DNA of 64,000 nucleotides. It comes from Oceanospirillum beijerinckii DSM 7166. Lineage in GTDB: Bacteria > Pseudomonadota > Gammaproteobacteria > Pseudomonadales > Halomonadaceae. A program made the position numbers and the translations under genes. Under the pieces are notes generated by a model. It searched no databases. It saw nothing but the letters and a program-made list of their open reading frames with translations, and had not been told where the DNA came from. This document shows positions 5,046 through 22,167 of this stretch, piece by piece (the first letter of the stretch is position 1; every line of letters starts with the position of its first letter). The DNA lies in the NCBI RefSeq assembly GCF_000422425.1, contig NZ_AULT01000034.1:1-64000 (forward strand), read 5' to 3'.

Positions 5046-5093
5046 AGCTATCTATATCACTAAGTGGTACACTTTGGTAAGGATAACCGTACC

Positions 5094-5468
5094 ATGAGAG
5101 TCTTTAAAAACAGCGTTTTCAATCGCTGGGCGGATAAAGAGAAAATCCAAGACAGTCAGCTGATTTCCGCAATTAGTGAAATTCAGAGCGGGCTGATTGA
5201 TGCAGATCTTGGCGGAGGTATGTACAAAAAGCGTATCGCTGTGCAAGGACAGGGGAAAAGCTCTGGGTATCGTACCCTATTGGCCTACAAGTCGGGGAAG
5301 AGTGTCTTTTTCCTATATGGGTTTGCTAAGAACAGGCAAGACAATATCTCTAAGAGTGAATTGAGAGCCCTGAAGTTATTAGCAAAGCAGTTATTGGGCT
5401 ATGGTGATCCGGCGCTTGATGACCTAATTGCAAAAAGAGTGTTATTTGAGGTGATTGAAAATGAGTGA
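5094..5468 (+). CDS. RelE-like type II toxin
   Basis: A 124-residue protein of the RelE/HigB-like family (Pfam RelE, PF06296 type), recognisable from MRVFKNSVFNRWADKE at the start, GGGMYKKRIA and SGKSVFFLYGFAKN in the core and the KLLAKQLL helix. Relatives cut mRNA on the ribosome. I chose the ATG at 5094, preceded by AAGGAT, over an in-frame GTG at 5064 because family members begin with MRVF. The stop overlaps the start of the antitoxin gene by 8 bp, so the two are translationally coupled. Toxin-first order is typical of higBA-like pairs. It starts 48 bp after the integrase stop. Confidence 0.85.
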   Translation: MRVFKNSVFNRWADKEKIQDSQLISAISEIQSGLIDADLGGGMYKKRIAVQGQGKSSGYRTLLAYKSGKSVFFLYGFAKNRQDNISKSELRALKLLAKQLLGYGDPALDDLIAKRVLFEVIENE

Positions 5469-5766
5469 ATCTATTCTGGATATGGTGCATGAAACAGCCA
5501 GTGCCCTTCATGAAGCAGGTCATCTGCCAGACACGACCATGAAAGAGTTTGATGCTCTGTGCCTGCCGCCTGTACAAGAATACACGGCTGAACAGATCCA
5601 GCTTATTAGGCAGAAGGCGAAAGTGAGTCAGGCAGTGTTTGCAGCCTACTTAAATGTCAGTAAATCAACCGTGCAGAAGTGGGAGCAGGGTGATAAAAAG
5701 CCAAACGGTCCATCACTGAAGCTGCTGAACCTAGTCTCTGAGAAAGGGCTGGCTATCCTGTTGTGA
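5461..5766 (+). CDS. XRE-family antitoxin (HigA/NadS-like)
   Basis: A 101-residue protein with a C-terminal helix-turn-helix: IRQKAKVSQAVFAAYLNVSKSTVQKWEQGDKKPNG is a textbook Cro/C1 motif, shown here only to mark the region (roughly residues 46-80). The N-terminal half (ESILDMVHETASALHEAG) is the part expected to bind the toxin. The ATG inside the toxin's last codons is preferred over an in-frame TTG six bases earlier. Antitoxins of this type repress their own operon. A hairpin at 5779-5811 (TAGCGCAT...ATGCGCTA) follows and may end the transcript, though its T-run is poor. Confidence 0.85.
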   Translation: MSESILDMVHETASALHEAGHLPDTTMKEFDALCLPPVQEYTAEQIQLIRQKAKVSQAVFAAYLNVSKSTVQKWEQGDKKPNGPSLKLLNLVSEKGLAILL

Positions 5767-7749: not shown

Positions 7750-8478
7750 TCAGATTCCCAATAGCCCTTTTAATCCATCCAGCAAGACACTGCAGGCGGC
7801 CAGAACACTGAGTGTAATAATCAGTTTTTTTACCGTTGCTTCCTGAAAGCGTCCCGCCAAAAATTCCGCCAGTAGATACCCCAATGCCACACCGGGTATT
7901 AACGGTAGTGTGAGGTAGACGGTTTGCAGGGTAAACCAGCCGTTTACTGCCAGCATAATGATAGATACTGGAGTGCTGAGCAGAAAAAACAGCGCCAGAT
8001 CATTGCGTGTTGTAATGCGATCTTTGTGTTGATACACCAGGGCCATGGGCGGTCCACCCACTGAGGTTGCGGTGCCCAGTACACCGGAGAAAAATCCGGC
8101 GGTGGTTAGCGATAGCGGTGTGGTTTGCAGCTGGATATGTCGGGTGCTTATCCAGATTGCCAGCAGTAAGGCGCTGCCCAGCACGATACTTAAAAGATGC
8201 TGTGGCATGGCCGTTAGCAACATAGCTCCGACCCAAGCTCCGGGAATACGGGCCAGGGTTGCTGGTAGAGTACGGGTCCAGTTGACCTGCTGGCGGTTTT
8301 TAACAATCACCATGGCCGACAAAATAAAGCCCAGCATAAGAATCGGACCGGGCACATAATCCGGTGAGATCAGATAAAGCAAAGGCGCGGATAGCAGGCC
8401 AAAGCCCAGCCCCATCCAGGCTTGTACGCCGATGCCTAGTGTCACGGCAGCAATGGCTAATAGATTAATCTGGTCCAT
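7750..8478 (-). CDS. TauE/SafE-family membrane exporter
   Basis: An inner-membrane protein of about 8 hydrophobic segments. It shows the family's repeated Gly/Pro-rich halves (GLGFGLLSAPLLYLISPDYVPGP near the start and FFSGVLGTATSVGGPPMALVY in the second half). Relatives export sulfite, sulfoacetate or other organic anions. The 242 residues fit. It converges on the FadR-type regulator, and its neighbours suggest transport of an anion linked to the HAD hydrolase, but the substrate cannot be read from sequence. Confidence 0.85.
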   Translation of the reverse strand: MDQINLLAIAAVTLGIGVQAWMGLGFGLLSAPLLYLISPDYVPGPILMLGFILSAMVIVKNRQQVNWTRTLPATLARIPGAWVGAMLLTAMPQHLLSIVLGSALLLAIWISTRHIQLQTTPLSLTTAGFFSGVLGTATSVGGPPMALVYQHKDRITTRNDLALFFLLSTPVSIIMLAVNGWFTLQTVYLTLPLIPGVALGYLLAEFLAGRFQEATVKKLIITLSVLAACSVLLDGLKGLLGI

Positions 8479-8976: not shown

Positions 8977-9720
8977 TTAACCCGCACCCTGGCGAGATTG
9001 TTCGCTGTTTTCTACCAGCACACCGGTACCGATACTATTGATCTCAGCCCACAGATCTTCATCAATTTCGATGCCATAATCGATGCTGTGCTCTTTGTTC
9101 TGCTCAACCTGTTGTGCACTTACATACTTGACGTGGTGGTTGCCCGGAGATTGCTGCAAAGAGGTGGTCAGATCCACGCGGGAGCTACAGATAATGGTTA
9201 GTGCCTGTTTGTCATCAGCACCGGCTTTCAGATTAGTGGCCGCTTCTGCGTAGCTTGGGTAACGCTCACCGGCCTTAATCGCGGCGGTATGTTCAGTCAC
9301 CGACTGACTGCCGTTACGCCAGTAAGCGGCGACACTGATACCGCGACGACCACAGTCGGTCAGGGCTTTCAGGATAAACTTACGGTTGTGGCAGTTATGT
9401 ACTGTGACTGTGGCGATACCGCTTTCCAGCGCTTTCGCGTGTGCCAGATCCACAGACGCTGCGATACAGTTCAGAGCACTGCGACCATTACTGTCGATAA
9501 TGGCTGAGGTGCTGTCTTCATAAACAACCTTGCTCAGCGGCTTATCGCGATCGGCTGTGATATAAGGTAGGGCACGCTTCAGCTCTTCCAAGCCATCCAG
9601 ACCGTGTTTTTCCAGCCACAGAATCATATTGGCGGCATCTTCATAGTTGCCGACAAAGTAACCGCTGGCTTCGTAACAGCGACGCAGGGCAGCTTTTAGT
9701 TCGTTCATTGAAATTTTCAT
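8977..9720 (-). CDS. DUF3726-like protein, distant relative of the Ldh_2 (malate/lactate/imine reductase) family
   Basis: A 247-residue protein. The N-terminus (MKISMNELKAALRRCYEASG, then DAANMILWLEKHGLDGL) resembles the helical start of the Ldh_2 dehydrogenase family and of DUF3726. The middle (LAHAKALESGIATVTVHNCHN) recalls the Ldh_2 core. It is much shorter than the roughly 340-residue dehydrogenases, so it may be a non-catalytic or specialised relative. Ldh_2 enzymes include reductases of cyclic imino acids, relevant because the locus seems to handle a nitrogen compound. It follows the 573-residue gene by 26 bp on the same strand, so the two are an operon. The family call is from memory of the signature and is moderate. 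Confidence 0.55.
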   Translation of the reverse strand: MKISMNELKAALRRCYEASGYFVGNYEDAANMILWLEKHGLDGLEELKRALPYITADRDKPLSKVVYEDSTSAIIDSNGRSALNCIAASVDLAHAKALESGIATVTVHNCHNRKFILKALTDCGRRGISVAAYWRNGSQSVTEHTAAIKAGERYPSYAEAATNLKAGADDKQALTIICSSRVDLTTSLQQSPGNHHVKYVSAQQVEQNKEHSIDYGIEIDEDLWAEINSIGTGVLVENSEQSRQGAG

Positions 9721-9746
9721 GGTTAACGCTCCTCTATGCTGCCTGA

Positions 9747-11468
9747 TTAGTGGTTGTTTTCAGTAGTCGGTGCCAGTGGCATAAACCAGTCATCATTGAA
9801 TGGTTTGCCGATATCTTCTAACAGAGGTGCACCCTGGAACATGGTATTACGCACCCACAGTTTGGATTTTGGATCAAATTTGCTCACGCCGAAGAAGGCC
9901 AGTTTGGCGCGCAGCAGGTGCATAGGCAGAATGTCACGATCAAGCAGGTTGGCCTGAATATCACCGTAGATGCAGCGGTTCATGCTCTGAATACGACGCA
10001 CAATGCCTCGCAGTTTAGGGCGTGCCACCATAAAGCGCGCTGTGGTGTGCTCCGGGTGCAGTTGGACATATTCACTCAACTGGTCGTAACACTTGCGTAC
10101 TGCATAACCGACACCCAGTGCCATCTGCTTCTCTTTACCCTGGTCACAGGCAGAGTGACCCAGGCGCGGTTCCATCTTCTCTTCTGAACGGTACCAGAAT
10201 ATTTCACGGGAGCCTTCGGCACCAAAATCGATATCCAGCGCCCAGCGGTAGCGATCTTCGATCACGGATTTCAGCGCCTGAACCGGCATCAGAGGGTCCA
10301 GATCCAGAAACTCTTCAGCGGCTTGGTAATCATCCAGATCTTCGACCAGCTCTGGATACAGCTCCAACATAATAGATACCAGCATCTCCTGACCCTGTAC
10401 CGAGCTGTTGTTTTCGCTCCACTGGATCAGCTCATTCCAGTCACTGAAGTTTTCTTCGATCTGCTGCTGTAAAGCTTTCAGGTCGTTCAGTACCAGTTGA
10501 TTATTGTCAGTCTGCCACGCATCTTCGGTGACGGTTTGCTCAGTGTGCAGGCTGCAACGCTCAATCAGTTCCTGGAAGCGAGTTCGGATACGCAGGTCAA
10601 TTTGTCCCAGAGTGCGTACACGAGCCAGTGCCAGTTCACGCATCTCAACCCATTGATTGATCAGGTGTGGGTGATTCACCAGATAAGGCGCCATACCCAG
10701 ACCGGTAGAGTTACCGATACCGAAGTAGCGTTTGATCTCGTCCTGCATCGGCTGATAGGAATCCTGGGACTTGTGTTTAGCAATATGTTCAGCCTGAGTC
10801 AGGCTGAAGTTACGCAGCATCAGACAGACAAACATCTCAGCGGCAAAAGGGCGGGCAAAATCGGGATAGCGGGTTTGTACTTTTTCCCAGTCCGCCATAC
10901 CCAGCTTACCGCTGCCGTATACCGCTGTAGTGCGGTACAGGTAGCCGACTTCAGCGATTTTGCTAACATCCGGCTGCTCGCCGTTGGCCAGTTGATCCAC
11001 CACATAGTTAAAGTTACGGGCGCTACGATTCGCGCGGGATAGGACAAAGACACGGGCGTCAACTCGACCGGCTTCCTGCTTAGGTACGTTTTGACGCAGC
11101 TTTTCCAGGTAGATATCGTCTACTTCACCGTCAACCAGGGCCATTGTCAGGTCCCATTTGGTCGCGATAACGCGGTCGTTACGCTCTTCGTCAGACAGAT
11201 AATCAGAGAAGATGACAAAGTTAAATAAGCCGTGCGGTGCTTGAACCTGATAAATCACGGTGCCGTAACCTTGCTCATCCAGATCAAAGCGACGGGTTTC
11301 GATCTGCCAGCGTTCGCGCATGATGCGACGAACCAGGGCGCGCATAAAGCTTAAACGGCTCTGGTGCAGCGCACCTAAACGTTCCAGATTCATCACCTGG
11401 TCAGCTGGTCGTAAGGCCAGCGCGTTGCCCCCTCTCAGAGAAGCATGAATGGCGGCTAGGGTTGTCAT
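9747..11468 (-). CDS. Conserved-looking protein of unknown function, 573 residues
   Basis: I do not recognise the family. The protein is soluble-looking, without signal peptide or membrane segments. It is rich in Arg, Asp and aromatic residues, with motif-like stretches such as ERWQIETRRFDLDEQGYG, IGNSTGLGMAPYLVNHPH, EIFWYRSEEKMEPRLG and MNRCIYGDIQANLLDRD. The central part (about 290-390) is helical and acidic. The first gene of a two-gene minus-strand operon with the DUF3726-like gene, it lies downstream of a LysR regulator gene on the same strand and near the ALDH-BCCT operon, so it is probably an enzyme of the same pathway. No catalytic motif can be assigned by eye. Confidence 0.8.
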   Translation of the reverse strand: MTTLAAIHASLRGGNALALRPADQVMNLERLGALHQSRLSFMRALVRRIMRERWQIETRRFDLDEQGYGTVIYQVQAPHGLFNFVIFSDYLSDEERNDRVIATKWDLTMALVDGEVDDIYLEKLRQNVPKQEAGRVDARVFVLSRANRSARNFNYVVDQLANGEQPDVSKIAEVGYLYRTTAVYGSGKLGMADWEKVQTRYPDFARPFAAEMFVCLMLRNFSLTQAEHIAKHKSQDSYQPMQDEIKRYFGIGNSTGLGMAPYLVNHPHLINQWVEMRELALARVRTLGQIDLRIRTRFQELIERCSLHTEQTVTEDAWQTDNNQLVLNDLKALQQQIEENFSDWNELIQWSENNSSVQGQEMLVSIMLELYPELVEDLDDYQAAEEFLDLDPLMPVQALKSVIEDRYRWALDIDFGAEGSREIFWYRSEEKMEPRLGHSACDQGKEKQMALGVGYAVRKCYDQLSEYVQLHPEHTTARFMVARPKLRGIVRRIQSMNRCIYGDIQANLLDRDILPMHLLRAKLAFFGVSKFDPKSKLWVRNTMFQGAPLLEDIGKPFNDDWFMPLAPTTENNH

Positions 11469-11815
11469 TATTATTGTCCTCTTCTTATGTCTGCCTGCAT
11501 TGTTTTAATCAGGATTCGCAACAGGATTTTTATCAGTAATGTTAGCTTGTAAAGCGTCGTCAGTTGATGAGCCAATCTTGAGTCAAATCTGCCTACGCCG
11601 ACAAATCAGAAGGTTATATCGGGTGATAAGTAAACTTTATCAAAACCTCGTCTGTAATTATTTTTACTAAGGTAAGGATGGGCAAAACCCTTGAAAAATG
11701 GGGGCTTTTATTCAGTTTAGTGGTTTAGAGATGAGGGAGGGCTGAAAACAAAGCGCTGGAAAAGAGCGACAATATATTGATAGAGAGCAATAAATGCTCT
11801 CCTCTGCCTGTGTGA
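11469..11815. other. 347-bp gap with a candidate minus-strand promoter
   Basis: No gene is visible. On the minus strand, TTGATA (11638-11643), a 17-bp spacer and GATATA (11615-11620) form a plausible sigma-70 promoter about 150 nt before the 573-residue gene. A LysR-type operator could overlap it, but no clear inverted repeat stands out. Confidence 0.4.
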
Positions 11816-12718
11816 TTAGTCTTGATGGTCTTGGCTCTGCTGCTTAATAAACTCCACCAAAGCCTCGGCCGGTGGTGATAGAGATTTGTTATTCATCTGC
11901 ACAATACCGATATGGCGAATCACCTTGGGACTACTTAACGGTACAAAGGTCAGCTTCTGGCTATCTTTTGGTACCGCATACCAGGGCAGGGTGGTGATAC
12001 CAAAGCCTGCTTCCAACATCGCAATCAGCGAAATCATATTCGAGATATAGAACTGAGACTGACCTAACAGTGGGCTGGCTTCCGTGTCTTCCAAAATACG
12101 CGACGTACCATTACCGATTAAACGATATTGCGTTAGCTCTTCCCAATGGATCTCATCGAACTCTGCAATAGGGTGATTGATGGGGCACACCACACCAATC
12201 TGATCATCCCAGATCGGAGTAAAGCTTTTATCACTGTGTTCCTCTTCATGGAACAGGCTGGCGATACCAAAATCCACTTCCTGGCTTTCGACCATCTTTA
12301 TTACCGCATCCGAGTTGCCATCAAAAAAGCTGATATGTAGATCGGGTGAGTCAGCAACAAACTGCAGCAACAGCTCTGGCAGAATACGGGTGGCAATAGA
12401 AGGCACAGAGGCGATACGCAGATGACCGGTTTTATGTTCGGCCAGCAGGGTCATATCTTCGGCGACACGATCATGATGGGCGATCAGCTCTTTGGCCTTA
12501 GGTAAAAAGTAGCGACCAAAAGGGGTCAGCTCTGTTTTTGCTGTTTTGGCATTGCGCTTTTCAAACAGGCCTTCACCCAGTTTGTTTTCCAGATCCCGAA
12601 TCGATAGTGAGATCGCCGGTTGCGTGCGGTGGGCCTTTTCTGCGGCAGCATGGAAACCTTTCAGCTCTGCTACCCAGACAAAATGACGGAGTTGGGTGAT
12701 TTTCAGTTCTGGCAACAT
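11816..12718 (-). CDS. LysR-type transcriptional regulator
   Basis: A 300-residue regulator. The N-terminal winged helix (residues 5-65) has the classic ITQLRHFVWVAELKGFHAAA, then AHRTQPAISLSIRDLE pattern. The effector-binding domain (about 92-295) follows, with LRIASVPSIATRILPELL and the GFGITTLPWYAV signature. It lies between the unknown two-gene operon and the divergent ALDH operon, so it most likely controls one or both in response to the pathway substrate. The 329-bp intergenic region towards the ALDH gene holds an array of direct repeats. Confidence 0.92.
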   Translation of the reverse strand: MLPELKITQLRHFVWVAELKGFHAAAEKAHRTQPAISLSIRDLENKLGEGLFEKRNAKTAKTELTPFGRYFLPKAKELIAHHDRVAEDMTLLAEHKTGHLRIASVPSIATRILPELLLQFVADSPDLHISFFDGNSDAVIKMVESQEVDFGIASLFHEEEHSDKSFTPIWDDQIGVVCPINHPIAEFDEIHWEELTQYRLIGNGTSRILEDTEASPLLGQSQFYISNMISLIAMLEAGFGITTLPWYAVPKDSQKLTFVPLSSPKVIRHIGIVQMNNKSLSPPAEALVEFIKQQSQDHQD

Positions 12719-12746
12719 CGCTTTTTTCCTCGGTTCTCTCTGATCA

Positions 12747-12885
12747 CAAGCCCGTTAAAGTCCTATCAATGCATCGTCAAAAGCGCGGTAAAACCCTATT
12801 CAAGTGCTATTTAAGCCCGGTCAAAGCTCTATTTTTGTTCTTTCAACACTCTGTCGATGCATCTCAAGGCCCGATAAATAAAGGC
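12747..12885 (+). promoter_or_regulatory. Array of ~19-bp direct repeats in the LysR-ALDH intergenic region
   Basis: Similar strings of the form AAGCCCGGTAAA(A/G)CCCTAT begin near 12748, 12781, 12813 and, less well conserved, 12866. The first three are 32-33 bp apart, about three helical turns. Two near-identical palindromes around GATGCATC also occur (about 12769 and 12855). The array lies between the divergent LysR and aldehyde dehydrogenase genes, so it is a good candidate for cooperative regulator binding. It is not a standard single LysR T-N11-A box. Confidence 0.5.
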
Positions 12886-13047
12886 CTTCGCAGCGCTTGA
12901 TGCTTGATTATCCTCACCTTTTTTATGGTTTGCTTTTAAAGCGATTTTCTTTGGTAAGGAAAACTTATCAACGAATATTATTTATTAATTTTTATTATTA
13001 GATGCCTGGGCCTAAGATGCAAACAACGATTTAAGAGAGGTAGCGTT

Positions 13048-14514
13048 ATGACAACAAATACAAACACTGGGTCTGATCAGGTTTTCCGTAACTATATTGG
13101 TGGTGAGTGGGTAGAAGGCAATAAAGGTAGTGTTGCCAACATCAGCCCTGCAGATACCAGCGATGTGATTGGTCATTACGCTCAGGCAGATAAAGCGCAA
13201 ACTGAAGCCGCTATCGTCGCTGCTGAACAAGGTCAGATTGAATGGGCCAAAAGTGGTCTGGAACAGCGTTACTCTGTTCTGATGGCCATCGGTGATGAAC
13301 TGATCGCCCGTAAAGATGAGCTGGGTGAGATTCTGGCCCGTGAAGAAGGTAAAACCCTGGCGGAAGGTATCGGTGAAACGTATCGCTCCGGTCAGTTCTT
13401 CCACTACTACGCGGCAGAAGTACTGCGTCAGATGGGTGAAACCGCTGAATCAGTACGTCCTGGTATCGAAATTGAAACCCGCCGTGAGCCAGTCGGTGTT
13501 GTAGGTATCATCACCCCCTGGAACTTCCCGACAGCCACAGGTGCCTGGAAAATTGCTCCGGCACTGGCGTTTGGTAATGCTGTGGTTTGGAAACCTGCGA
13601 ATCAGGTACCGGCTTCTGCATGGGCGCTGACTGAAATTATCTCGCGTCAAAACCTGCCAGCAGGCACGCTGAACCTGGTGATGGGTCCGGGTGCTGAAGT
13701 GGGTGATGTGATGATCAACTCCCGCGGCATCAATGCACTGACCTTCACCGGCTCTCTGGAAACCGGCCGTAAAGTAGCCGCTGCTACTGCGGTAAATCTG
13801 GTGAAATGCCAGCTGGAGATGGGTTCTAAGAACGCTCTGGTGGTACTGGACGATGCGGATCTGGATAACGCCGTTGAGTGTGCGGTTAATGGTGCCTTTG
13901 GTGGTACTGGTCAGAAATGTACGGCATCTTCCCGTCTGATTGTGACCGAAGGTATTCACGATCGTTTTGTTGAAGCGGTTGTTGAGCGCATGAAGAAGCT
14001 GGTGGTTGGTCACCCGCTGAAAGAAGGTGTTCATATTGGTGCTGTGGCTGACGCCCGTCAGATGGAACAGAACCTGGCCTACCTGGAGCTGGCTAAGAAA
14101 GAAGGCGGCAAGCTGGTATATGGCGGTGAAGTACTGAACGAAGATACCGAAGGCTACTACATGCAGCCTGCACTGTTCACCGAAACCACGAATCAGATGA
14201 CTATCAACCGTGAAGAAGCTTTTGCTCCGATCGCCTGTGTGATCAAGGTGAAAGATTACGACGAAGCACTGGCGACTCTGAATGACACTAACTTCGGTCT
14301 GACCGGTGGTATCTGTACGGAATCTCTGAAGTACGCCTCTGACTTTAAGCGTAATGCGAAGACCGGTTGTGTCATGGTGAACCTGCCAACGGCGGGTACT
14401 GACTACCACGTGCCATTCGGTGGCCGTAAAGATTCCAGCTTCGGTCCACGTGAACAAGGCACCTACGCCAAGGAATTCTACACCGTTGTAAAAACGACTT
14501 ACATCCGCCCATAA
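13048..14514 (+). CDS. NAD(P)-dependent aldehyde dehydrogenase, alpha-ketoglutaric-semialdehyde dehydrogenase type
   Basis: Oxidises an aldehyde to the acid. The catalytic set is complete: N159 (TPWNFPT), E257 (LEMGSKN) and nucleophile C291 (GQKCTASSRL). The C-terminus PFGGRKDSSFGPREQG with AKEFYTVVKT resembles 2,5-dioxovalerate dehydrogenases from glucarate and hydroxyproline breakdown more than betaine-aldehyde dehydrogenases. The 488-residue length is usual. AGAGAGG precedes the ATG. First gene of a plus-strand cluster; the dipeptidase-like gene starts 16 bp after its stop. The exact substrate is inferred only as a small carboxylated semialdehyde. Confidence 0.85.
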   Translation: MTTNTNTGSDQVFRNYIGGEWVEGNKGSVANISPADTSDVIGHYAQADKAQTEAAIVAAEQGQIEWAKSGLEQRYSVLMAIGDELIARKDELGEILAREEGKTLAEGIGETYRSGQFFHYYAAEVLRQMGETAESVRPGIEIETRREPVGVVGIITPWNFPTATGAWKIAPALAFGNAVVWKPANQVPASAWALTEIISRQNLPAGTLNLVMGPGAEVGDVMINSRGINALTFTGSLETGRKVAAATAVNLVKCQLEMGSKNALVVLDDADLDNAVECAVNGAFGGTGQKCTASSRLIVTEGIHDRFVEAVVERMKKLVVGHPLKEGVHIGAVADARQMEQNLAYLELAKKEGGKLVYGGEVLNEDTEGYYMQPALFTETTNQMTINREEAFAPIACVIKVKDYDEALATLNDTNFGLTGGICTESLKYASDFKRNAKTGCVMVNLPTAGTDYHVPFGGRKDSSFGPREQGTYAKEFYTVVKTTYIRP

Positions 14515-14529
14515 CCGGGAGCAGGTCTT

Positions 14530-15549
14530 ATGACTACACAGCAGAATTCAAACAATAATGCGCTGCATAACGATCTGATAGTGATTGATGGTCTGCAGTA
14601 TTCCAACTGGAATCGCACGATCTTTGAACAACTGCGCGAGGGTGGTGTGACCATGGTGCATGTCACCATCGTCTACCACGAACAGATTCGTGAAACCCTG
14701 CTGCGTATCTCGGAGTGGAACCGCCACTTTGAGCAACACAGTGATCTGATTATGCCGGTCAGAAGTGCGGCGGATATCCGTCGCGCTAAAGAACTGGGCA
14801 AGGTGGGTATCATGTTTGGTGCCCAGAACTGTTCGCCGATTGAAGATGATATCGGCATGATCGAGGTGATGCGCGAGCTGAACCTGATGATTATGCAGCT
14901 GACTTATAACAACCAGAGCCTGCTGGCATGCGGTTGTTACGAAGCTGAGGACAGTGGTGTTACTCGCTTTGGTCGCCAGGCGATCAAAGAGATGAACCGG
15001 GTCGGTATGGTGGTGGATATGAGCCACAGCGGTGAGCGCAGTACACTGGATGCCATTGAGATTTCTGAGCGTCCTATTGTGATCTCTCATGCCAACCCGA
15101 CCAGTTTCCACGCCGCCAAGCGCAATAAGTCCGATACGGTACTGAAGGCGCTGGGCGAGTCCGGTGGCTTACTGGGCTTCAGCCTGTATCCGTTCCACCT
15201 GAAAAATGGCCCGGATTGCACACTGGATGAGTTTTGCGACATGGTGGCCAGCACCGCTGATCTGATGGGGATTGATCGTATCGGTATTGGTACCGATCTA
15301 TGCCAGGATCAACCACTGTCTGTATTGGAGTGGATGCGTAACGGTCGCTGGTCAAAAGAGATGGATTATGGTGAAGGTTCTAAGTCCAATGCGGACTGGC
15401 CACGTCCATTGTCCTGGTTCCGGGACAGCCGTGATTTCCCGAATATCACTAATGGCCTGCTGGCGCGGGGCTTCAGTCCTGAAGAAGTGGCCAAAGTGAT
15501 GGGCCTGAACTGGCTGAACTTCCTTGATGATGCTCTGAAACCAGAATAA
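14530..15549 (+). CDS. Peptidase M19 (membrane dipeptidase)-family protein with altered metal site
   Basis: Belongs to the amidohydrolase-fold renal dipeptidase family. H166 (DMSHSGE), H187 (VISHANP) and D256 (GIGTDLCQD) occupy the usual metal and catalytic positions. The first metal motif, normally HxD in DGHND, is DGLQY here (L22, Q23, Y24), so a classical two-zinc dipeptidase site is unlikely. A similar protein is, as I recall, linked to the dimethylglycine demethylation genes of Pseudomonas aeruginosa (PA5396). No signal peptide is seen, so it is cytosolic despite the family name. It is co-transcribed with the ALDH gene. A role in hydrolysing an amide intermediate is inference. Confidence 0.8.
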   Translation: MTTQQNSNNNALHNDLIVIDGLQYSNWNRTIFEQLREGGVTMVHVTIVYHEQIRETLLRISEWNRHFEQHSDLIMPVRSAADIRRAKELGKVGIMFGAQNCSPIEDDIGMIEVMRELNLMIMQLTYNNQSLLACGCYEAEDSGVTRFGRQAIKEMNRVGMVVDMSHSGERSTLDAIEISERPIVISHANPTSFHAAKRNKSDTVLKALGESGGLLGFSLYPFHLKNGPDCTLDEFCDMVASTADLMGIDRIGIGTDLCQDQPLSVLEWMRNGRWSKEMDYGEGSKSNADWPRPLSWFRDSRDFPNITNGLLARGFSPEEVAKVMGLNWLNFLDDALKPE

Positions 15550-15621
15550 ACCCACAGTTATTTTCTGATCACACTGCTTCAAATTCCATTTGATCAGGCC
15601 GTGATTTGAGACCCGCTGTGT

Positions 15622-15654
15622 CCGGTTTACGGGTAAGTTGTGCCCGTAAACCGG
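15622..15654 (+). promoter_or_regulatory. Perfect 12-bp inverted repeat between the M19-like and BCCT genes
   Basis: CCGGTTTACGGG and its exact complement flank a 9-nt spacer. No T-run follows on either strand, so it is not a standard terminator. It may be an mRNA stem-loop that stabilises the upstream transcript, or a protein-binding site for a promoter before the transporter gene. Confidence 0.55.
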
Positions 15655-15769
15655 AAAACAGGCCGAAAAACAGAGGTTTTTACCCTGAAATCTTTGTTTT
15701 TCAGTCTATGAAAATCTGGCTTAAGAGCCCTGATAGCGTACAAAAATAAAAGACATCAGGAGACTTATA

Positions 15770-17344
15770 ATGAATGATACAACCCTGGCCTCTGCACAAG
15801 CAGACGAGGCGGTTATGAATAAAGGCAAATTCTTTGACGGCGTTGATATCCCCGTCTTTCTGATCAGCGGTGGCGTGCTGGTACTGTTTGCTGCGTTTGC
15901 GCTTTACGACATCAAGATGGTATCCGGCTGGGTGAATACCGGCTTTGCCACCTCCACCAAATTCTTCGGTGCCTATTGGCAGGTGCTGTTGCTGCTGACC
16001 TTTATTATCGGCCTGTTCCTGGCGATTGGTCGTACCGGTTCTGTGGTACTGGGTGGCCTGAAAGCCCCTGAGATGAGTACTTTTAAATGGATCTCTGTGA
16101 TCATGTGTACTCTGCTGGCCGGTGGTGGTGTGTTCTGGGCTGCAGCTGAGCCTATGGCGCACTTCACTTCTCCTCCGCCTCTGTTTGTAGGTCTTGGGGG
16201 CGGCGAAACTGGTACGGTACAAGCGGCTTATAACGCACTGGCACAGAGCTTTATGCACTGGGGTTTCCTGGCGTGGGCGATTCTGGGCAGCCTGACCGGT
16301 GTAGTCTTTATGTACCTGCACTATGAAAAAGGTCTGCCACTGAAACCTCGAACATTGCTATACCCAGTGTTCGGCGATAAGGTAATGAAAGGCCCTCTGG
16401 GTGCCATCGTTGATGCCTCCTGTGTACTGGCAGTAGTGGCAGGTACGGTGGGTCCTATCGGTTTCCTGGGGCTGCAGGTGAGCTTCGGACTGGAAAAACT
16501 GTTTGGTATTCCTGATGTATATGCCACTCAGGTGACCATCTTGGTGGGCCTGATTGCCATCTATACCCTGTCTGCAGTGAGCGGTGTGACAAAAGGTATT
16601 CAATTACTGAGTAGTGCTAACGTAATTCTGGCTGTGGCACTGATGGCTTTTATCCTGCTGTTTGGCCCAACGGCATTTATCTTTGATAGCTACCTGCATT
16701 CGTTTGGTATCTACCTGGATCAGTTTATCCCTATGGCAACCTTCCGTGCTAACCCCGGTTGGTTGGACTGGTGGACCGTATTCTTCTGGGGCTGGTTCCT
16801 GGGTTATGGCCCGCTGATGGCGATGTTTGTGGCACGTATCTCCCGTGGCCGTACCATCCGTGAAATGATCCTGCTGATCTCTGTAGTAGCACCTGTAATC
16901 ACTTGTTTCTGGTTCACCATTGTCGGTGGAAGTGGTCTGGCGTTTGAACTGGCGAATCCTGGCGTGATTTCAGAACCTTTCACAGGTTTTAATCTGCCTG
17001 CGGCACTGCTGGCGATTACCGAACAGCTGCCAATGGGCTTTTTGATCTCTGTACTGTTCCTGGTACTGACTACAATTTTCGTAGCGACGACGGGTGACTC
17101 CATGACCTACGCGGTTTCTATGGTAATGACAGGCACAGACAGTCCTCAAGCAGGTATCCGTGTGTTCTGGGGTGTGATGATGGGGCTGGTTGCGGCGCTG
17201 CTGATCTCTATCGGCTCCGGTGGTATCTCTGCCCTGCAGTCCTTTATTGTGATTACCGCTGTACCCGTATCTCTGGTACTGCTGCCATCACTGTGGAATG
17301 CCCCTCAGATCGCTAGGAAAATGGCGGATGAACAAGGTCTGTAG
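15770..17344 (+). CDS. BCCT-family transporter (betaine/carnitine/choline type)
   Basis: A 12-segment inner-membrane secondary carrier for zwitterionic or quaternary ammonium compounds. The family signature lies near residues 331-366: WTVFFWGWFLGYGP followed by MAMFVARISRGRTIREM. GGGVFWAAAEPMAHF near 121-135 is the other conserved block. In the Corynebacterium carrier BetP the substrate box here reads WGWWISW, whereas this protein has W342, F343 and Y346 in the aligned stretch, so its substrate need not be glycine betaine. It lacks the long C-terminal osmosensory tail of BetP, which suits nutrient uptake. RBS AGGAGAC precedes the ATG. Confidence 0.93.
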   Translation: MNDTTLASAQADEAVMNKGKFFDGVDIPVFLISGGVLVLFAAFALYDIKMVSGWVNTGFATSTKFFGAYWQVLLLLTFIIGLFLAIGRTGSVVLGGLKAPEMSTFKWISVIMCTLLAGGGVFWAAAEPMAHFTSPPPLFVGLGGGETGTVQAAYNALAQSFMHWGFLAWAILGSLTGVVFMYLHYEKGLPLKPRTLLYPVFGDKVMKGPLGAIVDASCVLAVVAGTVGPIGFLGLQVSFGLEKLFGIPDVYATQVTILVGLIAIYTLSAVSGVTKGIQLLSSANVILAVALMAFILLFGPTAFIFDSYLHSFGIYLDQFIPMATFRANPGWLDWWTVFFWGWFLGYGPLMAMFVARISRGRTIREMILLISVVAPVITCFWFTIVGGSGLAFELANPGVISEPFTGFNLPAALLAITEQLPMGFLISVLFLVLTTIFVATTGDSMTYAVSMVMTGTDSPQAGIRVFWGVMMGLVAALLISIGSGGISALQSFIVITAVPVSLVLLPSLWNAPQIARKMADEQGL

Positions 17345-17441
17345 TGTTTAGGTTATTCTGCCTCACACATTGATCTCTTTATCTTTGACAGGCTGCAAGG
17401 GCAGCCTGTTATCCCTCCGATGATTTTAAAAAGTGATAACT

Positions 17442-17819
17442 ATGAAACAAGCAGTTAAAACTGAACTTTTTGCCTCTAAAGCACCGCTGGAGTGGGCTGT
17501 AATTGCTAATGGCCAGTTGTCGACGGCGCAGATTCCCATTGATCAGAATGGGCAGGTGGTTGACGGCGGCATTGAAGCTCAGGCGCGTCAAACCATGGAT
17601 AACCTGAAACATACCATTGAGGCTGCAGACCTGACGATGGATCACGTCACTCAGGTGCTGATCTATGTCACGGATCGTGATCAAATGCCTGTGTTTAATA
17701 AGGTCTATGCTGAGTATTTCCAAGCGCCTTACCCAAACCGTGCCGCGATGATAGTAGCCGGTTTGGCCCGTGAAGAGATGCTGTGTGAAGTGGTTGCCTA
17801 TGCCACTGTGCCACAGTAA
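17442..17819 (+). CDS. RidA/YER057c/UK114-family protein
   Basis: Members hydrolyse reactive enamine/imine intermediates to ketoacids and ammonia. The key Arg is R100 in PYPNRAAMIVAGL, followed by CEVVAYA, where family members have a conserved Glu; this subfamily fits an imine deaminase. I took the ATG at 17442 rather than the in-frame GTG at 17433, giving 125 residues. It lies 97 bp after the BCCT gene and ends the cluster. Its presence suggests the pathway makes an imine, for example by oxidising an amine or a cyclic imino acid. Confidence 0.85.
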   Translation: MKQAVKTELFASKAPLEWAVIANGQLSTAQIPIDQNGQVVDGGIEAQARQTMDNLKHTIEAADLTMDHVTQVLIYVTDRDQMPVFNKVYAEYFQAPYPNRAAMIVAGLAREEMLCEVVAYATVPQ

Positions 17820-17948
17820 CCCTGTATTCGAATAAACCGTCCCTCATCGGTTTATGGGTTACGCAAAGTTCAAACTTCGCCATTTGAAGTGAATTTGGTT
17901 TGAAATCTGTTGCTGGAGCACTCCACCACAGATCTTACAAACAGGGTA

Positions 17949-17977
17949 AGCGAGCCCGCGTGTCGGCTCGCTTTTTT
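17949..17977 (+). terminator. Rho-independent terminator after the RidA gene
   Basis: Stem AGCGAGCC/GGCTCGCT with an 8-nt loop is followed by six T residues. It lies 130 bp after the RidA stop and probably ends the plus-strand catabolic operon. Confidence 0.85.
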
Positions 17978-18024
17978 GTCAGTGTAACTATTGATCATTG
18001 ATATCTGTTGTTGCTTTATTAGCT

Positions 18025-19983
18025 TTAGTTTTTTCTGCTATTTGAAGTACCGCGATTTCTACTTGCTGAGGAATAACTGCCACGTTTGCCTGAACTGCGC
18101 CTTTTCTTCTTAAACGCATCTTTATTTTCCAGCCCGGCTAAACCAGACATCTGAGCCGTTTTTGCTTGCTCTATCATGCTGTTGAGTTGCTGTTGCATGG
18201 GCAGCATAAAGTCATCGTATTTCAGCGCCTTCTGGCTGATATTCTCCAGCATGGATTCCCAGTGGGCGGTCATATCCGGCAGAGTGGCGGACTCGGGCAG
18301 GTTATTGATCAGGGCCTGACCGGTTGGGGTAGAGAGAATCAGCTTGTTCTGACGCTGTAAAAAGCCACGTTTAAATAGCAGCTCGATAATGCCCGCACGG
18401 GTGGCTTCTGTGCCCAGGCCATCGGTGTCTTTCAGAATCTTCTTAATGCTTTTATCTTTTACATAGCGGGCGATGCCTGTCATGGCAGACAGTAAAGTCG
18501 CATCGGTAAAGTGCTTGGGTGGCTGGGTTTGTTTCTCCAGCAGTTCGCCGTGACTACAGTGCAACACATCGCCTTTTTTTAGAGCCGGTAGATGTTGTTC
18601 ATCCGGTTCCTGCTCAAACGGTTTTTTCCAACCCAGATCGATATTCTGCCGAGCTTTGGCGATAAACAAACCGCCGGCAATATCAAAGCTGATCTGTTGA
18701 GTGTTATAACGATATGCGGGATAAAACTGTGCCAGATACTGGCGGGCGATCAGTTCGTAGAGTTTTCGTTCGTCATTGGCTAAGCGGCCACTATCCATGC
18801 TTTTGGTTGTCGGGATAATAGCGTGGTGTGCATCCACTTTGCTGTCATTCCAGGCCTTGCTGACCAGTTTCTGATCCGCTTCTGTTGCACCCTGGCGCAA
18901 ATTATCCGCCGTGTTTTGGATGGCACTGATCACCGCAGGGGCATCTTTCAGCTGATCTTTAGGCAGATGACGACTGTCGGATCTGGGGTAGGTGATCAGG
19001 TTGTGTCTTTCATACAGCGCCTGACACAGATCCAGTACCTGTTGTGCCGAGAAACCGAAACGCTTGTTCGCGGCGATCTGCAGTTGTGACAGGTTAAAGG
19101 GCAGCGGTGGTGACTCTCTTTTGCTTTGCTGCTCAACGTCGACCACGGTGGCCGCTTGTTCAAAAATACGCTGTACCACATGTTCGGCCAGCTTTTTATT
19201 CAGTACCCGGCTTTCTTCATCCATATGAGGTGCGCAGGCATCACTGGGTTGCCATTCTGCAGTAAAGCTATGGTTATTTTTCCCGGATGCATCGGTGTGC
19301 AGGTGGGCGAGTACTTCGTAGAAGTTTTTCGGCTGGAAGTTTTTGATCTCTTCGTCGCGGCGCACCACCAGGCCCAAGACTGGGGTCTGTACCCGGCCTA
19401 CCGAGAGCACGCCTTTATAACCCGCTTGCTGTCCTTTAAGGGTATAAGCACGGGTGAGGTTAATCCCATAGAGCCAGTCCGCACGACTGCGGGCCAGTGC
19501 CGAAGTAGCCAGTGGAATAAAATCCCGATTGCTACGCTCGTTATTGAGGGCTTTTTTGACCGCGCCTGGGTTTAAGTCACTGATCAGTACCCGACGGGTA
19601 TTGTTGCGTTTAGTGGCAGATGTTTTAAGGTAGCTGATCACCTCATCGACCAGTAGTTGTCCTTCACGGTCCGGGTCACCGGCATTAACCAGAATACTGG
19701 CTTGTTTTACCAGCTTGCGCAGTACCGTCAGCTGTTTGCGGGTTTGGCTTTTGGGCTCTAACTGCCACTGGTCGGGAATAATGGGCAGTTTATCCAGCTG
19801 CCACTTTTTCAGGGCTGGATCATAGACTTCAGGATCGGCTTGCTCTAACAGGTGGCCAATACACCAACTAACACAATCACCCTGTCCGGTTTCGATATAA
19901 CCCTCATGCTTTTTATGAGGTTTGGGCAATACCGCTGCGATAGCGCGGCCCAGACTGGGTTTTTCTGCAATATAGAGTTTCAT
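18025..19983 (-). CDS. topB: DNA topoisomerase III
   Basis: A type IA topoisomerase that decatenates DNA by single-strand passage. The TOPRIM domain begins at the N-terminus (MKLYIAEKPSLGRAIAAVL) with NAGDPDREGQLLVDEV as its acidic motif. The active-site Tyr is Y332 in LITYPRSDSRHLP (E. coli TopB Y328). The C-terminal tail is basic (KKKRRSSGKRGSYSSASRNRG), suited to DNA binding. I chose the ATG at 19983 because it begins the conserved TOPRIM sequence; an upstream in-frame start would add 20 unconserved residues. Length 652. It is divergent from recA. Confidence 0.95.
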   Translation of the reverse strand: MKLYIAEKPSLGRAIAAVLPKPHKKHEGYIETGQGDCVSWCIGHLLEQADPEVYDPALKKWQLDKLPIIPDQWQLEPKSQTRKQLTVLRKLVKQASILVNAGDPDREGQLLVDEVISYLKTSATKRNNTRRVLISDLNPGAVKKALNNERSNRDFIPLATSALARSRADWLYGINLTRAYTLKGQQAGYKGVLSVGRVQTPVLGLVVRRDEEIKNFQPKNFYEVLAHLHTDASGKNNHSFTAEWQPSDACAPHMDEESRVLNKKLAEHVVQRIFEQAATVVDVEQQSKRESPPLPFNLSQLQIAANKRFGFSAQQVLDLCQALYERHNLITYPRSDSRHLPKDQLKDAPAVISAIQNTADNLRQGATEADQKLVSKAWNDSKVDAHHAIIPTTKSMDSGRLANDERKLYELIARQYLAQFYPAYRYNTQQISFDIAGGLFIAKARQNIDLGWKKPFEQEPDEQHLPALKKGDVLHCSHGELLEKQTQPPKHFTDATLLSAMTGIARYVKDKSIKKILKDTDGLGTEATRAGIIELLFKRGFLQRQNKLILSTPTGQALINNLPESATLPDMTAHWESMLENISQKALKYDDFMLPMQQQLNSMIEQAKTAQMSGLAGLENKDAFKKKRRSSGKRGSYSSASRNRGTSNSRKN

Positions 19984-20295
19984 ACGATCTTGTGGTCCAT
20001 ATACAGCTGATATTTTCAATATACAGTGGCTTATCCCGCACACTGTATGACGACAGCGTTTATACAGTACTTTTTGTTGTAAAAAAGCAGGCAGGAAATA
20101 GCGAAAAATTTCCCCTTAGCCATGTATAATGCGCGCCATCTATACCGGTGCGACCAGTGTGTTTAGGTGATGGCCAGGGTGTTTGCGGGCATTTTAAGCT
20201 TATTTTCAACCCTGCTTTCAACCTAAATCGGCATATTTCAAAACACAGGATTCAGCCCGTTACAATCTTCTTAATGTCACTACTGTACACGACTA

Positions 20296-20311
20296 CTGTT
20301 TTCATATACAG
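20296..20311 (+). promoter_or_regulatory. LexA (SOS) box upstream of recA
   Basis: CTGTTTTCATATACAG matches the consensus CTGT-N8-ACAG exactly and lies 38 bp before the recA start, so recA should be LexA-repressed and SOS-induced. The rest of the 365-bp topB-recA gap holds a possible extended -10 element (TGTATAAT near 20122) but no gene. Confidence 0.93.
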
Positions 20312-20348
20312 TGTTCTGTAGTTTAGGATTTCAAATTAAAGGTGTGTC

Positions 20349-21437
20349 ATGTCAGATCAAGAAAATCGTCAGAAAGCGTTAGGCGCGGCCCTGTCTCAGA
20401 TTGAGCGCCAGTTTGGTAAGGGTGCGGTTATGCGCATGGGCGAGCAGCCTCGTGAAGCTATTCCTGCGGTATCCACCGGTTCTCTGGGTCTGGACGTTGC
20501 ACTGGGCATTGGCGGTCTGCCATATGGCCGTATTGTTGAAATCTTTGGTCCTGAATCTTCCGGTAAAACCACGCTGACGCTGCAAGTGATTGCTGAAGCT
20601 CAGAGGCAGGGCAAAACCTGTGCTTTCGTTGATGCGGAGCACGCGCTTGATCCGATTTATGCCGAGAAGCTGGGTGTAAATCTGGACGAGATGCTGGTAT
20701 CTCAGCCTGACACCGGTGAGCAGGCGCTGGAAATCACCGATATGCTGGTGCGTTCCAATGCGGTTGACGTCGTGATTGTTGACTCCGTGGCGGCTCTGAC
20801 ACCGCGTGCTGAGATCGAAGGTGAGATGGGGGATTCCCATATGGGTCTGCAGGCACGTCTGATGTCTCAGGCGCTGCGTAAAATCACCGGTAACATCAAA
20901 AACGCCAACTGTCTGGTGATCTTTATTAACCAGATTCGTATGAAGATCGGCGTGATGTTCGGTAACCCTGAAACTACAACGGGTGGTAACGCGTTGAAGT
21001 TCTACGCTTCTGTACGTCTGGATATCCGTCGTACCGGTTCCGTGAAGCAGGGTGACGAGGTTGTGGGTAACGAGACCCGCGTTAAGGTGGTGAAGAACAA
21101 GGTATCGCCTCCGTTCAAACAAGCCGAATTCCAGATTATGTACGGTAAGGGTATCTATCATGCCGGTGAAGTGATCGATCTGGGTGTACAGCATAAGCTG
21201 GTTGATAAAGCCGGTGCCTGGTACAGTTATAACGGCAATAAGATCGGTCAGGGTAAAGCCAACGCCGCTCAATACCTGATGGATAACCCGGAAATATTAA
21301 GTGAGATTGATGGTAAGTTACGTGAAATGCTGCTGACCCCTATTCCTGCTAAGGCAGAGTCCGGTGCAAAAGCGACAGAAGAAGATAAAAAAGCGGCTAA
21401 AGAATCCAAAGAACCTAAAGAAGACAAGCTGCTATAG
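20349..21437 (+). CDS. recA: Recombinase RecA
   Basis: ATP-dependent strand-exchange protein and LexA co-protease. Walker A is [10 protein letters not shown] (about 66-75). The L1/L2 regions ([36 protein letters not shown]) are intact, and a Lys/Glu-rich C-terminal tail follows. The 362 residues fall in the usual range. A LexA box is just upstream, a strong terminator just downstream, and recX follows, the standard arrangement. Confidence 0.99.
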
Positions 21438-21482
21438 GCTTATGAAATAGCACTTTGTGCGTTACCCGCTCTACTCAGCCTT

Positions 21483-21514
21483 AAAACCAGTCAAAGCGAT
21501 TTGACTGGTTTTTT
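21483..21514 (+). terminator. Rho-independent terminator after recA
   Basis: Thirteen-base stem AAAACCAGTCAAA/TTTGACTGGTTTT with loop GCGA, running into more T residues. As in many gammaproteobacteria, it would reduce read-through from recA to recX. Confidence 0.9.
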
Positions 21515-21633
21515 GCCGTTTGGGGTAAGGGGTAACGGTTGAGATAGTCAGAGCGAATAATAAAGTCTGTCTGATTCAAGCCCGGATCGGATATTGGTAA
21601 TAGCGCAAGGGTGAAACGGGGTGGAAAACAAAG

Positions 21634-22167
21634 ATGGCGGCAAAAAAACTCACCACAGAATCTGAAATTTTCCAGGCGGCAATTGATCTGTTATCCCGCC
21701 GGGACTATGCGGCTGGTGAGCTTAAGCAAAAGCTGTTGGTTAAAACCGGTCCTGCTGAGGCGGAATCCTCGGAAGGTGATGGGTTTGACGAGCCGGTTGA
21801 GCCTCAAGTTTCACCGCGAGAATTAGTAGAGCGGGTGATTATCCGTGTGCAGGAAGCAGGCTATCAAAGCGATGAGCGTTATATCGAAATGCTGGTGCGT
21901 GCCCGTAAAGAACGGGGTTATGGCCCGCAGTTTATCGCCCAGTATCTGCAGCAGTACAAACTGGATAGTCTGCTGGTTGAGGAGTATATCGACAGCCGTG
22001 ATCCCGAGTGGAAAGAATACGCTCTCAGACAGCTGGAGAAAAAATACCGCCAGCCCAGTGATGATTTTAAGGAGCGGCAGAAGCAGCAACGTCATCTGTA
22101 TCAACGGGGTTTTAACAGCGATCAGATCCGGTGGGCGATGAGTCGTTTTGATGAAGATACTGTTTGA
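21634..22167 (+). CDS. recX: RecA regulator RecX
   Basis: Binds RecA filaments and limits their growth. Three-helix repeats are visible (IDLLSRRDYAAGELKQKL, then YIEMLVRARKERGYGPQFIAQYLQQY, then YQRGFNSDQIRWAM at the C-terminus). The 177 residues are longer than the usual ~150 because of an acidic insert (about 36-55, EAESSEGDGFDEPVEPQ) between the first two repeats. Position 196 bp after recA supports the call. Confidence 0.93.
   Translation: MAAKKLTTESEIFQAAIDLLSRRDYAAGELKQKLLVKTGPAEAESSEGDGFDEPVEPQVSPRELVERVIIRVQEAGYQSDERYIEMLVRARKERGYGPQFIAQYLQQYKLDSLLVEEYIDSRDPEWKEYALRQLEKKYRQPSDDFKERQKQQRHLYQRGFNSDQIRWAMSRFDEDTV

Follow-up and report, generated by a model that had tools for sequence, protein, structure and literature searches.

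A gene unit of Oceanospirillum beijerinckii that probably serves the uptake and degradation of homarine

Homarine (N-methylpicolinate), a ring-shaped molecule, is common in marine algae and animals. For trigonelline, the TgnABCDE pathway of Acinetobacter baylyi cleaves the ring between C5 and C6 to an N-formyl semialdehyde, on which an aldehyde dehydrogenase (ALDH) and a hydrolase then act. The homarine operon described by Ferrer-Gonzalez et al. is reportedly named homABCDER. Homarine is a marine metabolite that, according to the excerpted text of PMC12817926, Ruegeria pomeroyi rapidly depletes in spent diatom medium, and N-methylglutamate dehydrogenase (Mgd) takes part in its catabolism in the account excerpted from PMC13390433. 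A first-pass annotation of the locus studied here had proposed an undescribed-looking catabolic locus for a zwitterionic nitrogen compound. The catabolic reading is supported, and the neighbouring genes fit homarine best. Undescribed probably does not apply to the core pathway, which is probably the one published by Ferrer-Gonzalez and colleagues (2026, Nat Microbiol 11:1531), as cited in the excerpt of PMC13390433.

The window, i.e. the whole stretch of DNA analysed, spans 64,000 nucleotides. The listing of its open reading frames confirmed seven ORFs at 8977-17819 in two divergent arms (Table 1), all of them present as first described: the unknown 573-residue protein, DUF3726, LysR, ALDH, M19, BCCT and RidA. 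A Pfam scan gave clear matches for LysR, Aldedh, Peptidase_M19, BCCT and Ribonuc_L-PSP, and the divergent order of the LysR and ALDH genes is common to most relatives.

Table 1. Positions and proposed roles of the features of the locus in the window
Feature	Coordinates	Strand	Description
TauE/SafE-type transporter	7750..8478	-	Pfam TauE; conserved neighbour in close relatives only
DUF3726 protein	8977..9720	-	247 aa; proposed to pair with the 573-residue protein as a subunit
573-residue protein	9747..11468	-	573 aa; proposed ring-opening catalyst; outside known families
LysR-type regulator	11816..12718	-	300 aa; Pfam HTH_1 and LysR_substrate
Intergenic stretch, LysR/ALDH	12719..13047		presumed control region, from ORF coordinates
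ALDH	13048..14514	+	488 aa; Aldedh E 6.8e-155; proposed oxidation of C5 semialdehyde
M19-family protein	14530..15549	+	339 aa; Peptidase_M19 E 1.4e-81; proposed N-deformylase
BCCT transporter	15770..17344	+	524 aa; BCCT E 3.1e-150; proposed homarine importer
RidA protein	17433..17819	+	128 aa from GTG; Ribonuc_L-PSP E 4.8e-23; proposed N-methyl imine hydrolysis

We consider it likely that this locus imports and degrades homarine. Already among the candidates of the first pass, homarine is the best of them because Mgd-type, formate dehydrogenase-type and imine-handling genes adjoin the unit. The order and chemistry of the steps after uptake are put forward tentatively, with belief and doubt close to balance. 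Homarine would enter through the BCCT protein. Acting together, the 573-residue and DUF3726 proteins would break the C5-C6 bond of the N-methylpyridinium ring, so that C6 ends up in an N-formyl group and C5 becomes an aldehyde. The ALDH would convert the C5 semialdehyde to the acid and the M19-like protein would take off the formyl group as formate. In the window's genome RidA would then aid hydrolysis of the N-methyl enamine or imine of 2-oxoglutarate to 2-oxoglutarate and methylamine; in other lineages an Ldh-family reductase would act instead and provide N-methylglutamate for Mgd. The LysR regulator would control both arms.

The logic proposed for the window resembles that of TgnABCDE in its C5-C6 cleavage, N-formyl semialdehyde, ALDH and hydrolase, but the seven ORFs include no flavin monooxygenase/reductase pair, and the first step would fall to the unrelated 573/DUF3726 pair. 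The homarine operon is resembled by Ruegeria-group loci, which have five structural genes and a regulator, the number implied by its reported name. The published pathway's link to Mgd (excerpt of PMC13390433) may likewise be echoed by the Mgd-type genes adjoining related units. Relative to the Ruegeria-group order and the Mgd link, the window differs in carrying RidA in place of Ldh, in having a BCCT gene and in its two divergent arms, and its genome lacks gamma-type Mgd. The window version seems to end differently from the core pathway.

The gene set turns up repeatedly in gamma- and alphaproteobacteria, and the unit is therefore more than a product of chance. The 573-residue gene has an M19 gene nearby in 86 of 91 loci, an ALDH gene in 73, a BCCT gene in 60 and a RidA gene in 48, so that its homologues do not occur mostly apart from the transporter and the ALDH, the pattern that the first-pass annotation had named as evidence against its proposal. 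These tables cover 91 of the 118 loci surveyed, the other 27 having less than 6.5 kb on one side; the 118-locus neighbour survey leaves out L013-L022, and the search for relatives' loci took the best 80 among the matches listed. At the identity threshold applied, 63 of 90 loci have a LysR gene close to the unit; in this count L014/L023, L020/L081 and L021/L078 each probably represent one genome taken twice. Three loci without an adjacent ALDH gene have an orthologue elsewhere in the genome (62-64%, next best 34-37%), which in one of them, Ruegeria arenilitoris, is part of another full copy of the unit. The 573-residue gene is common in some groups: in the genus of R. arenilitoris, 52 of 54 genomes carry it. 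The Ruegeria-group order LysR, ALDH, M19, 573-type, DUF3726, Ldh is found in 11 of the 15 loci examined. In Aminobacter, the unit is followed by a glycine-betaine-type ABC transporter and the annotation of the stretch shows no BCCT, a finding that we counted in favour of homarine. Literature searches on the combination of genes and on DUF3726 found no paper.

Mgd-type tetramer genes adjoin the unit in 4 of the 118 loci (L048, L084, L085 and L094) and also in Ruegeria sp. TM1040 and L159; the adjacency is rare overall. The L048-type alpha subunit has a relative (55-57%) in a gmaS-mgsABC-purU-folD-mgd-like locus. The L048 tetramer was considered as Sox and rejected, as it falls below the Sox cut-offs and has this relative in a gmaS-mgs-like locus. 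In TM1040, next to the unit lie genes for a sarcosine-oxidase-type tetramer and for a regulator of the AraC type, a layout that matches the arrangement of mgdABCD and tmaR in R. pomeroyi (excerpt of PMC13390433). The TM1040 alpha subunit scores 1356 against the SoxA model, above the cut-off of 1164, and its identity as Mgd therefore rests on its neighbours and not on the model. A search of the window's genome found no gamma-type Mgd, and its mgsC matches did not rise above paralogue level. This genome has, on another contig, a SoxA-scoring alpha subunit of sarcosine-oxidase type that shares 45% identity with the TM1040 protein and may or may not be an Mgd. The absence of glycine-betaine and carnitine demethylation genes noted in the first pass refers to the window; the genome at large carries this alpha subunit.

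Formate dehydrogenase-type genes of two kinds occur in 9 of the 118 loci, from few genera; two of the nine were scanned against families and the other seven were assigned by similarity. The Marinobacter gene of this type scores 483, below the model cut-off of 666. A 961-residue Marinobacter neighbour tried as a sarcosine oxidase was rejected, being a molybdopterin oxidoreductase. At E 1e-100, no Sox/Mgd alpha subunit was found in three genomes with formate dehydrogenase-type neighbours.

The Mgd-type neighbours also bear on which pyridinium betaine is degraded. The same chemistry might serve trigonelline or another such compound: the known trigonelline route likewise proceeds by ring cleavage and uses an ALDH and a hydrolase, and Sinorhizobium meliloti pSymB carries a paralogous gene set with a succinate semialdehyde dehydrogenase, i.e. 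the module in another form. Yet, N-methylglutamate is expected from a ring carboxylated at position 2, not at position 3, and Mgd-type genes adjoin the unit, which makes such a substrate very unlikely.

If homarine is the substrate, we predict that its ending varies by lineage, being either N-methylglutamate or 2-oxoglutarate and methylamine. RidA and Ldh are mutually exclusive in the locus. Among the 91 loci, the looser count gives 52 with RidA, 15 with Ldh, none with both and 24 with neither; a stricter RidA cut at 40% identity, which misses four RidA genes, gives 48 with RidA, 28 with neither and again none with both. The two genes were exchanged at least four times on a tree made by a quick method, with states taken from the stricter count (14 Ldh rows, after dropping the split gene of L086, and 49 RidA rows including the window). 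Gamma-type MgdC is present in 8 of 11 Ldh-type genomes versus 5 of 27 RidA-type genomes, a count in which L048, the source of the query, is among the eight positives, the Mgd copy of L086 is broken, and L028 and L085 (the latter with neither RidA nor Ldh) are left out. The Fisher values take no account of kinship among the genomes. A fuller scheme is possible, if on balance somewhat doubtful: two exchangeable endings, with RidA giving 2-oxoglutarate and methylamine, a marine source of methylamine, and Ldh giving N-methylglutamate that Mgd demethylates, both fed by a new class of N-methylpyridinium ring-opener made of the 573-residue family and DUF3726. If true, gene content alone would predict whether homarine is turned into N-methylglutamate or releases methylamine.

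The 573-residue protein matched no Pfam and no NCBIfam family in profile scans; among 79 aligned relatives, at most 4 hit any one Pfam family at E<=1. The alignment of these 79 relatives has 42 invariant positions. A first structure model, built from 10 sequences, was poor (pLDDT 68). The prediction suggested by the first pass for this unknown protein gave a model with pLDDT 92.3 and no fold match in the PDB (best E 0.21, probability 0.06); nothing was matched among viral models either (best E 0.45). No cofactor motif was recognised in the protein and its ring-opening role was therefore assigned by elimination. The DUF3726 protein matches Pfam DUF3726 (E 1.9e-23), and its N-terminal half appears to resemble Ldh_2: the score of 33.6 bits is below the cut-off of 38.8 and covers only profile positions 1-115 of 333, and residues 3-129 align to the Ldh_2 alignment (hhalign E 8.5e-5, probability 60). 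A Mesorhizobium protein fuses a 573-residue part with a DUF3726 part. We propose that the two proteins are a two-part ring-opening enzyme with no solved structural relative. If so, a ring-opening enzyme with a fold unmatched in the PDB is encoded by two genes whose only annotation is hypothetical or DUF3726.

The ALDH has C291 and E257 conserved in 95 relatives. Its nearest NCBIfam models are the alpha-ketoglutaric semialdehyde and 2,5-dioxovalerate dehydrogenases, both below cut-off. The earlier label of KGSA-type ALDH thus names the nearest model, NF042993 (alpha-ketoglutaric semialdehyde dehydrogenase), and overstates class membership, as the score is 488 bits against a cut-off of 770. Since these nearest models act on a C5 2,5-dioxo-acid, we counted them for homarine. 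The 2,5-dioxo-acid models score 488 and 473 bits versus 343 bits for glutamate semialdehyde models, which argues against proline betaine or N-methylproline, the least probable of the substrates weighed. Oxidation would there give N-methylglutamate semialdehyde, the ALDH would produce N-methylglutamate and Mgd would finish. The ALDH and Mgd-type genes would fit such a route, and BCCT proteins transport betaines, but the M19, RidA, Ldh, 573 and DUF3726 genes would have no clear task, and the unit contains no recognisable Rieske demethylase or proline-type oxidase. The earlier candidacy of proline betaine is further weakened in that neither a demethylase nor a proline-type oxidase turned up among those recurrent neighbour families that were annotated.

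Cyclisation of 2-aminomuconate semialdehyde gives picolinate, and the RidA family includes some 2-aminomuconate deaminases. The many PDB matches of the ALDH include 2-aminomuconate semialdehyde dehydrogenases. These points fit a route in which water opens homarine to N-methyl-2-aminomuconate semialdehyde. The ALDH would oxidise this product, and RidA, working like a 2-aminomuconate deaminase, would give a C6 oxo-diacid and methylamine. This route is unlikely: it yields neither formate nor N-methylglutamate, whereas formate dehydrogenase-type and Mgd-type genes recur nearby, it leaves the M19 protein of 86 of the 91 loci without a role, and enzymes for a C6 oxo-diacid were not recognised among annotated neighbours. 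In the preferred homarine pathway, with cleavage between C5 and C6, the window's RidA protein would act on the N-methyl imine. It scores 81.9 bits against Ribonuc_L-PSP, reaching the family score, R103 (presumably the catalytic Arg position) and E119 are conserved in 62 relatives, and it is a predicted RidA-family imine deaminase.

M19 dipeptidases have a binuclear metal site made of HxD, a bridging Glu, and two His. The window's M19 protein, whose closest PDB chain is 2i5g, resembles the family (renal dipeptidase, 2i5g) by a family-level match and by keeping His166, His187 and Asp256. It differs in that, when aligned to true dipeptidases, the bridging Glu is replaced by Gln99 and one His by Tyr126; the N-terminal HxD motif is not visible by eye, in a region outside these alignments. 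The metal site is apparently changed, with usual ligands missing. The BCCT protein belongs to its family (Pfam BCCT, 501 bits) and scores 338 bits against the glycine betaine equivalog NF047988, below 650. It shares family, length and overall alignment with the glycine betaine/choline transporters BetP and relatives, but its aromatic box reads WF-GY, in 81 of 81 near homologues, versus WW--W in BetP. The box has apparently been remodelled into a new form. Beside the altered M19 ligands and this box, the exchange of RidA and Ldh and the 573-residue model lacking a PDB match are apparently new. Outside the seven ORFs, a TauE/SafE-type transporter gene lies near the unit in 15 of 90 loci.

All seven open reading frames proposed by the first-pass annotation are present in the window, and their coordinates hold. 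Pfam and NCBIfam clearly assign the LysR, ALDH, Peptidase_M19, BCCT and RidA families; the DUF3726 protein shows in addition a resemblance to Ldh_2, below threshold, and the 573-residue protein matches no model of either collection. Among 79 aligned relatives of the latter, any one Pfam family is matched by at most four, at E≤1. The LysR and ALDH genes are divergent, with LysR and then the 573/DUF3726 pair on the minus strand, and ALDH followed by M19, BCCT and RidA on the plus strand.

Coordinates of the features discussed.
Feature	Stretch	Coordinates	Observation
Seven-gene unit	window	8977-17819	
TauE/SafE-type transporter gene	window	7750-8478	conserved beside the unit among close relatives (15/90 loci)
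427-residue integrase-like protein, then RelE/HigB-like and XRE-like genes	window	3762-5766	named by eye from translations; a sign that part of a mobile element lies upstream of the unit
814-residue natural fusion	L226, Mesorhizobium sp. 131-2-1	9944-12388	residues 19-573 match the 573-residue protein (41%), 596-660 match DUF3726 (Pfam)
Paralogous set	L225, S. meliloti pSymB	11941-23166	

The seven genes are a conserved unit. When a single genome of each species was scanned, at least 577 relatives of the 573-residue protein emerged, of which the best 80 were retained. Around the gene, in the 90 loci first compared and at set identity thresholds, we found DUF3726 in 86, M19 in 84, ALDH in 80, BCCT in 74, LysR in 63 and RidA in 60. 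A second count, restricted to the 91 loci flanked on each side by 6.5 kb or more, gave M19 86, ALDH 73, BCCT 60 and RidA 48, together with an Ldh-type reductase (15), formate dehydrogenase-type genes (9) and gamma-type mgdC (2, and 4/118 over all loci). The distribution of the 573-residue gene is patchy: it occurs in 16/369 sampled genomes of the class and 29/398 of the phylum, and in 52/54 genomes of the genus of Ruegeria arenilitoris. For three loci without ALDH beside the 573/DUF3726 pair, the genome has an orthologue elsewhere (62-64%, next best 34-37%), which in R. arenilitoris is part of a second, complete unit. The two 573-type genes of this genome (G795; stretches L167 and L049/L257) are 41% alike: one lies in the full operon, and for the other DUF3726 and a LysR gene are the sole neighbours recognised; a second 573-type match also occurs in a few further genomes of the genus.

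The unit may have two alternative endings. RidA alone is found in 48 of the 91 loci, a full-length Ldh-type reductase alone in 15, neither in 28 and both in none (Fisher p = 2.8e-6, ignoring kinship). A looser check gave 52 RidA, 15 Ldh, 24 neither and none with both, the two genes being together in none of the 138 loci examined; it also identified RidA in alphaproteobacterial loci without Ldh, e.g. Phaeobacter. The states changed at least four times on the tree of 573-residue proteins (by a quick method), and in Marinomonas vulgaris (L031), one of the loci closest to that of the window, the usual place of RidA beyond BCCT is taken by Ldh. Gamma-type MgdC is present in 8/11 Ldh-type genomes versus 5/27 RidA-type ones (Fisher p = 0.003, kinship again ignored), and at E 1e-100 the Sox/Mgd alpha subunit is absent from 14/27 RidA-type genomes versus 0/11 Ldh-type ones. 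This pattern fits an imine that would be either reduced by Ldh to N-methylglutamate, for subsequent use by N-methylglutamate dehydrogenase (Mgd), or hydrolysed by RidA to 2-oxoglutarate and methylamine.

In four marine gammaproteobacterial loci (L048, L084, L085, L094), genes for a sarcosine-oxidase-like heterotetramer adjoin the unit. These tetramers are most likely Mgd, because they score below the Sox cut-offs in both loci scanned (L048 and L094) and because a 55-57% relative of their alpha subunit, in genome G003, lies among genes of the glutamine-synthetase, GATase, GXGXG, glutamate-synthase, formyl-transferase and FolD families. We take these to be gmaS, mgsABC, purU, folD and mgd, the gene set of the N-methylglutamate pathway. 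In Ruegeria sp. TM1040, and likewise in L159, the unit has as neighbours an AraC-type regulator and a tetramer of the sarcosine-oxidase superfamily. The TM1040 alpha subunit is above the SoxA cut-off and its identity as Mgd thus rests on its neighbours. According to passages of PMC13390433, in R. pomeroyi the regulator gene tmaR, of AraC type, lies upstream of mgdABCD; the paper also notes, with reference to Ferrer-Gonzalez et al. 2026, that Mgd was reported to participate in homarine catabolism. The window's genome is RidA-type and its only alpha subunit is of the SoxA-scoring kind; mgsC gave nothing there above paralogue level, and was found in 1/12 genomes tested, G003, the source of the query. 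Since this SoxA-type protein is 45% identical to the TM1040 subunit, it might conceivably have an Mgd role.

Formate dehydrogenase-type genes adjoin the unit in nine loci and are of two kinds, each scanned in one locus. The first occurs in five loci of Halomonas and in one MAG, and its scanned member, L074, scores 700 against the formate dehydrogenase alpha model, above the cut-off of 666. In the second (three Marinobacter), the best model for L067 is formate dehydrogenase, at 483, under the cut-off. For three of the nine, L059, L067 and L076, a search at E 1e-100 detected no Sox/Mgd alpha subunit, and hence formate would not arise there through Mgd.

On its way to N-methylglutamate, homarine, the probable substrate of the unit, must shed one ring carbon and retain the N-methyl. 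In trigonelline degradation the ring is cleaved between C5 and C6. The simplest route would cleave homarine likewise, giving an N-formyl semialdehyde, a step that we would assign by elimination to the 573/DUF3726 pair. ALDH would convert the semialdehyde to the acid, the M19 protein would remove formate, and the imine would then be hydrolysed (RidA) or reduced (Ldh). This scheme would give every recurrent gene a single task, and would do so also for the neighbours of formate dehydrogenase type and Mgd type. In NCBIfam, the models closest to the ALDH are of enzymes acting on 2,5-dioxovalerate, a compound with the same carbon frame. The main rival, an opening by water to N-methyl-2-aminomuconate semialdehyde, leaves formate dehydrogenase, Mgd and M19 unexplained.

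The 573-residue and DUF3726 proteins very likely work together, since they are a single protein in Mesorhizobium sp. 131-2-1. The structure model of the former (79 sequences) is confident (pLDDT 92.3, pTM 0.92), and its best match among PDB chains, the set searched with Foldseek, has E 0.21; a distant fold match may nevertheless exist. Its family has 42 invariant positions, none of them cysteine. The DUF3726 protein matches the Ldh_2 alignment in its N-terminal half and has few invariant positions, and we thus see it as a partner rather than the catalyst. Judging from its residues, the M19 protein is probably not an ordinary dipeptidase: relative to true dipeptidases it has Gln for the bridging Glu and Tyr for one His, both metal ligands there, and inspection by eye shows no HxD motif in the N-terminal region. 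His166, His187 and Asp256 are retained; similar N-terminal regions are seen in the S. meliloti paralogue and in 2i5g. The BCCT box is WF-GY in 81/81 near homologues, which points to a different cation for the window transporter; of five further BCCTs encountered in the loci studied, four carry a WW box and the fifth is outside the pattern.

In 11 of the 15 Ruegeria-type loci fetched, LysR is divergent from ALDH-M19-573-DUF3726-Ldh. Five structural genes and a regulator are the number implied by homABCDER, reportedly the name of the homarine operon, and hence we expect the core of the unit to be the homarine pathway published in 2026. In the open-licence literature, homarine catabolism came up in one paper that cites this work and in one unrelated paper, and no title listed for homarine dealt with its catabolic genes. 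Nor did we find there any report of the RidA/Ldh exchange, the fold of the 573-residue protein, the altered metal site of M19 or the WF-GY box, all of which are apparently new.

Plasmid pMPC6-328K of Pseudomonas sp. MPC6 (L228) carries the whole unit, of RidA type, and is predicted to be conjugative; the unit may therefore move between bacteria. On Phaeobacter inhibens DSM 17395 plasmid pPGA1_262 (L222), the unit adjoins DMSP demethylation genes, with a RidA gene nearby and Ldh not found in the stretch. In the S. meliloti set, the 573-residue protein has a relative (30%) whose 242-residue partner matches no Pfam family. An M19 protein (43%) comes next, and then genes for an ABC transporter, an aminotransferase and a succinate semialdehyde dehydrogenase, and two for RidA. 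The putative ring-opening module may have been reused there on a different compound, perhaps a further pyridinium betaine.
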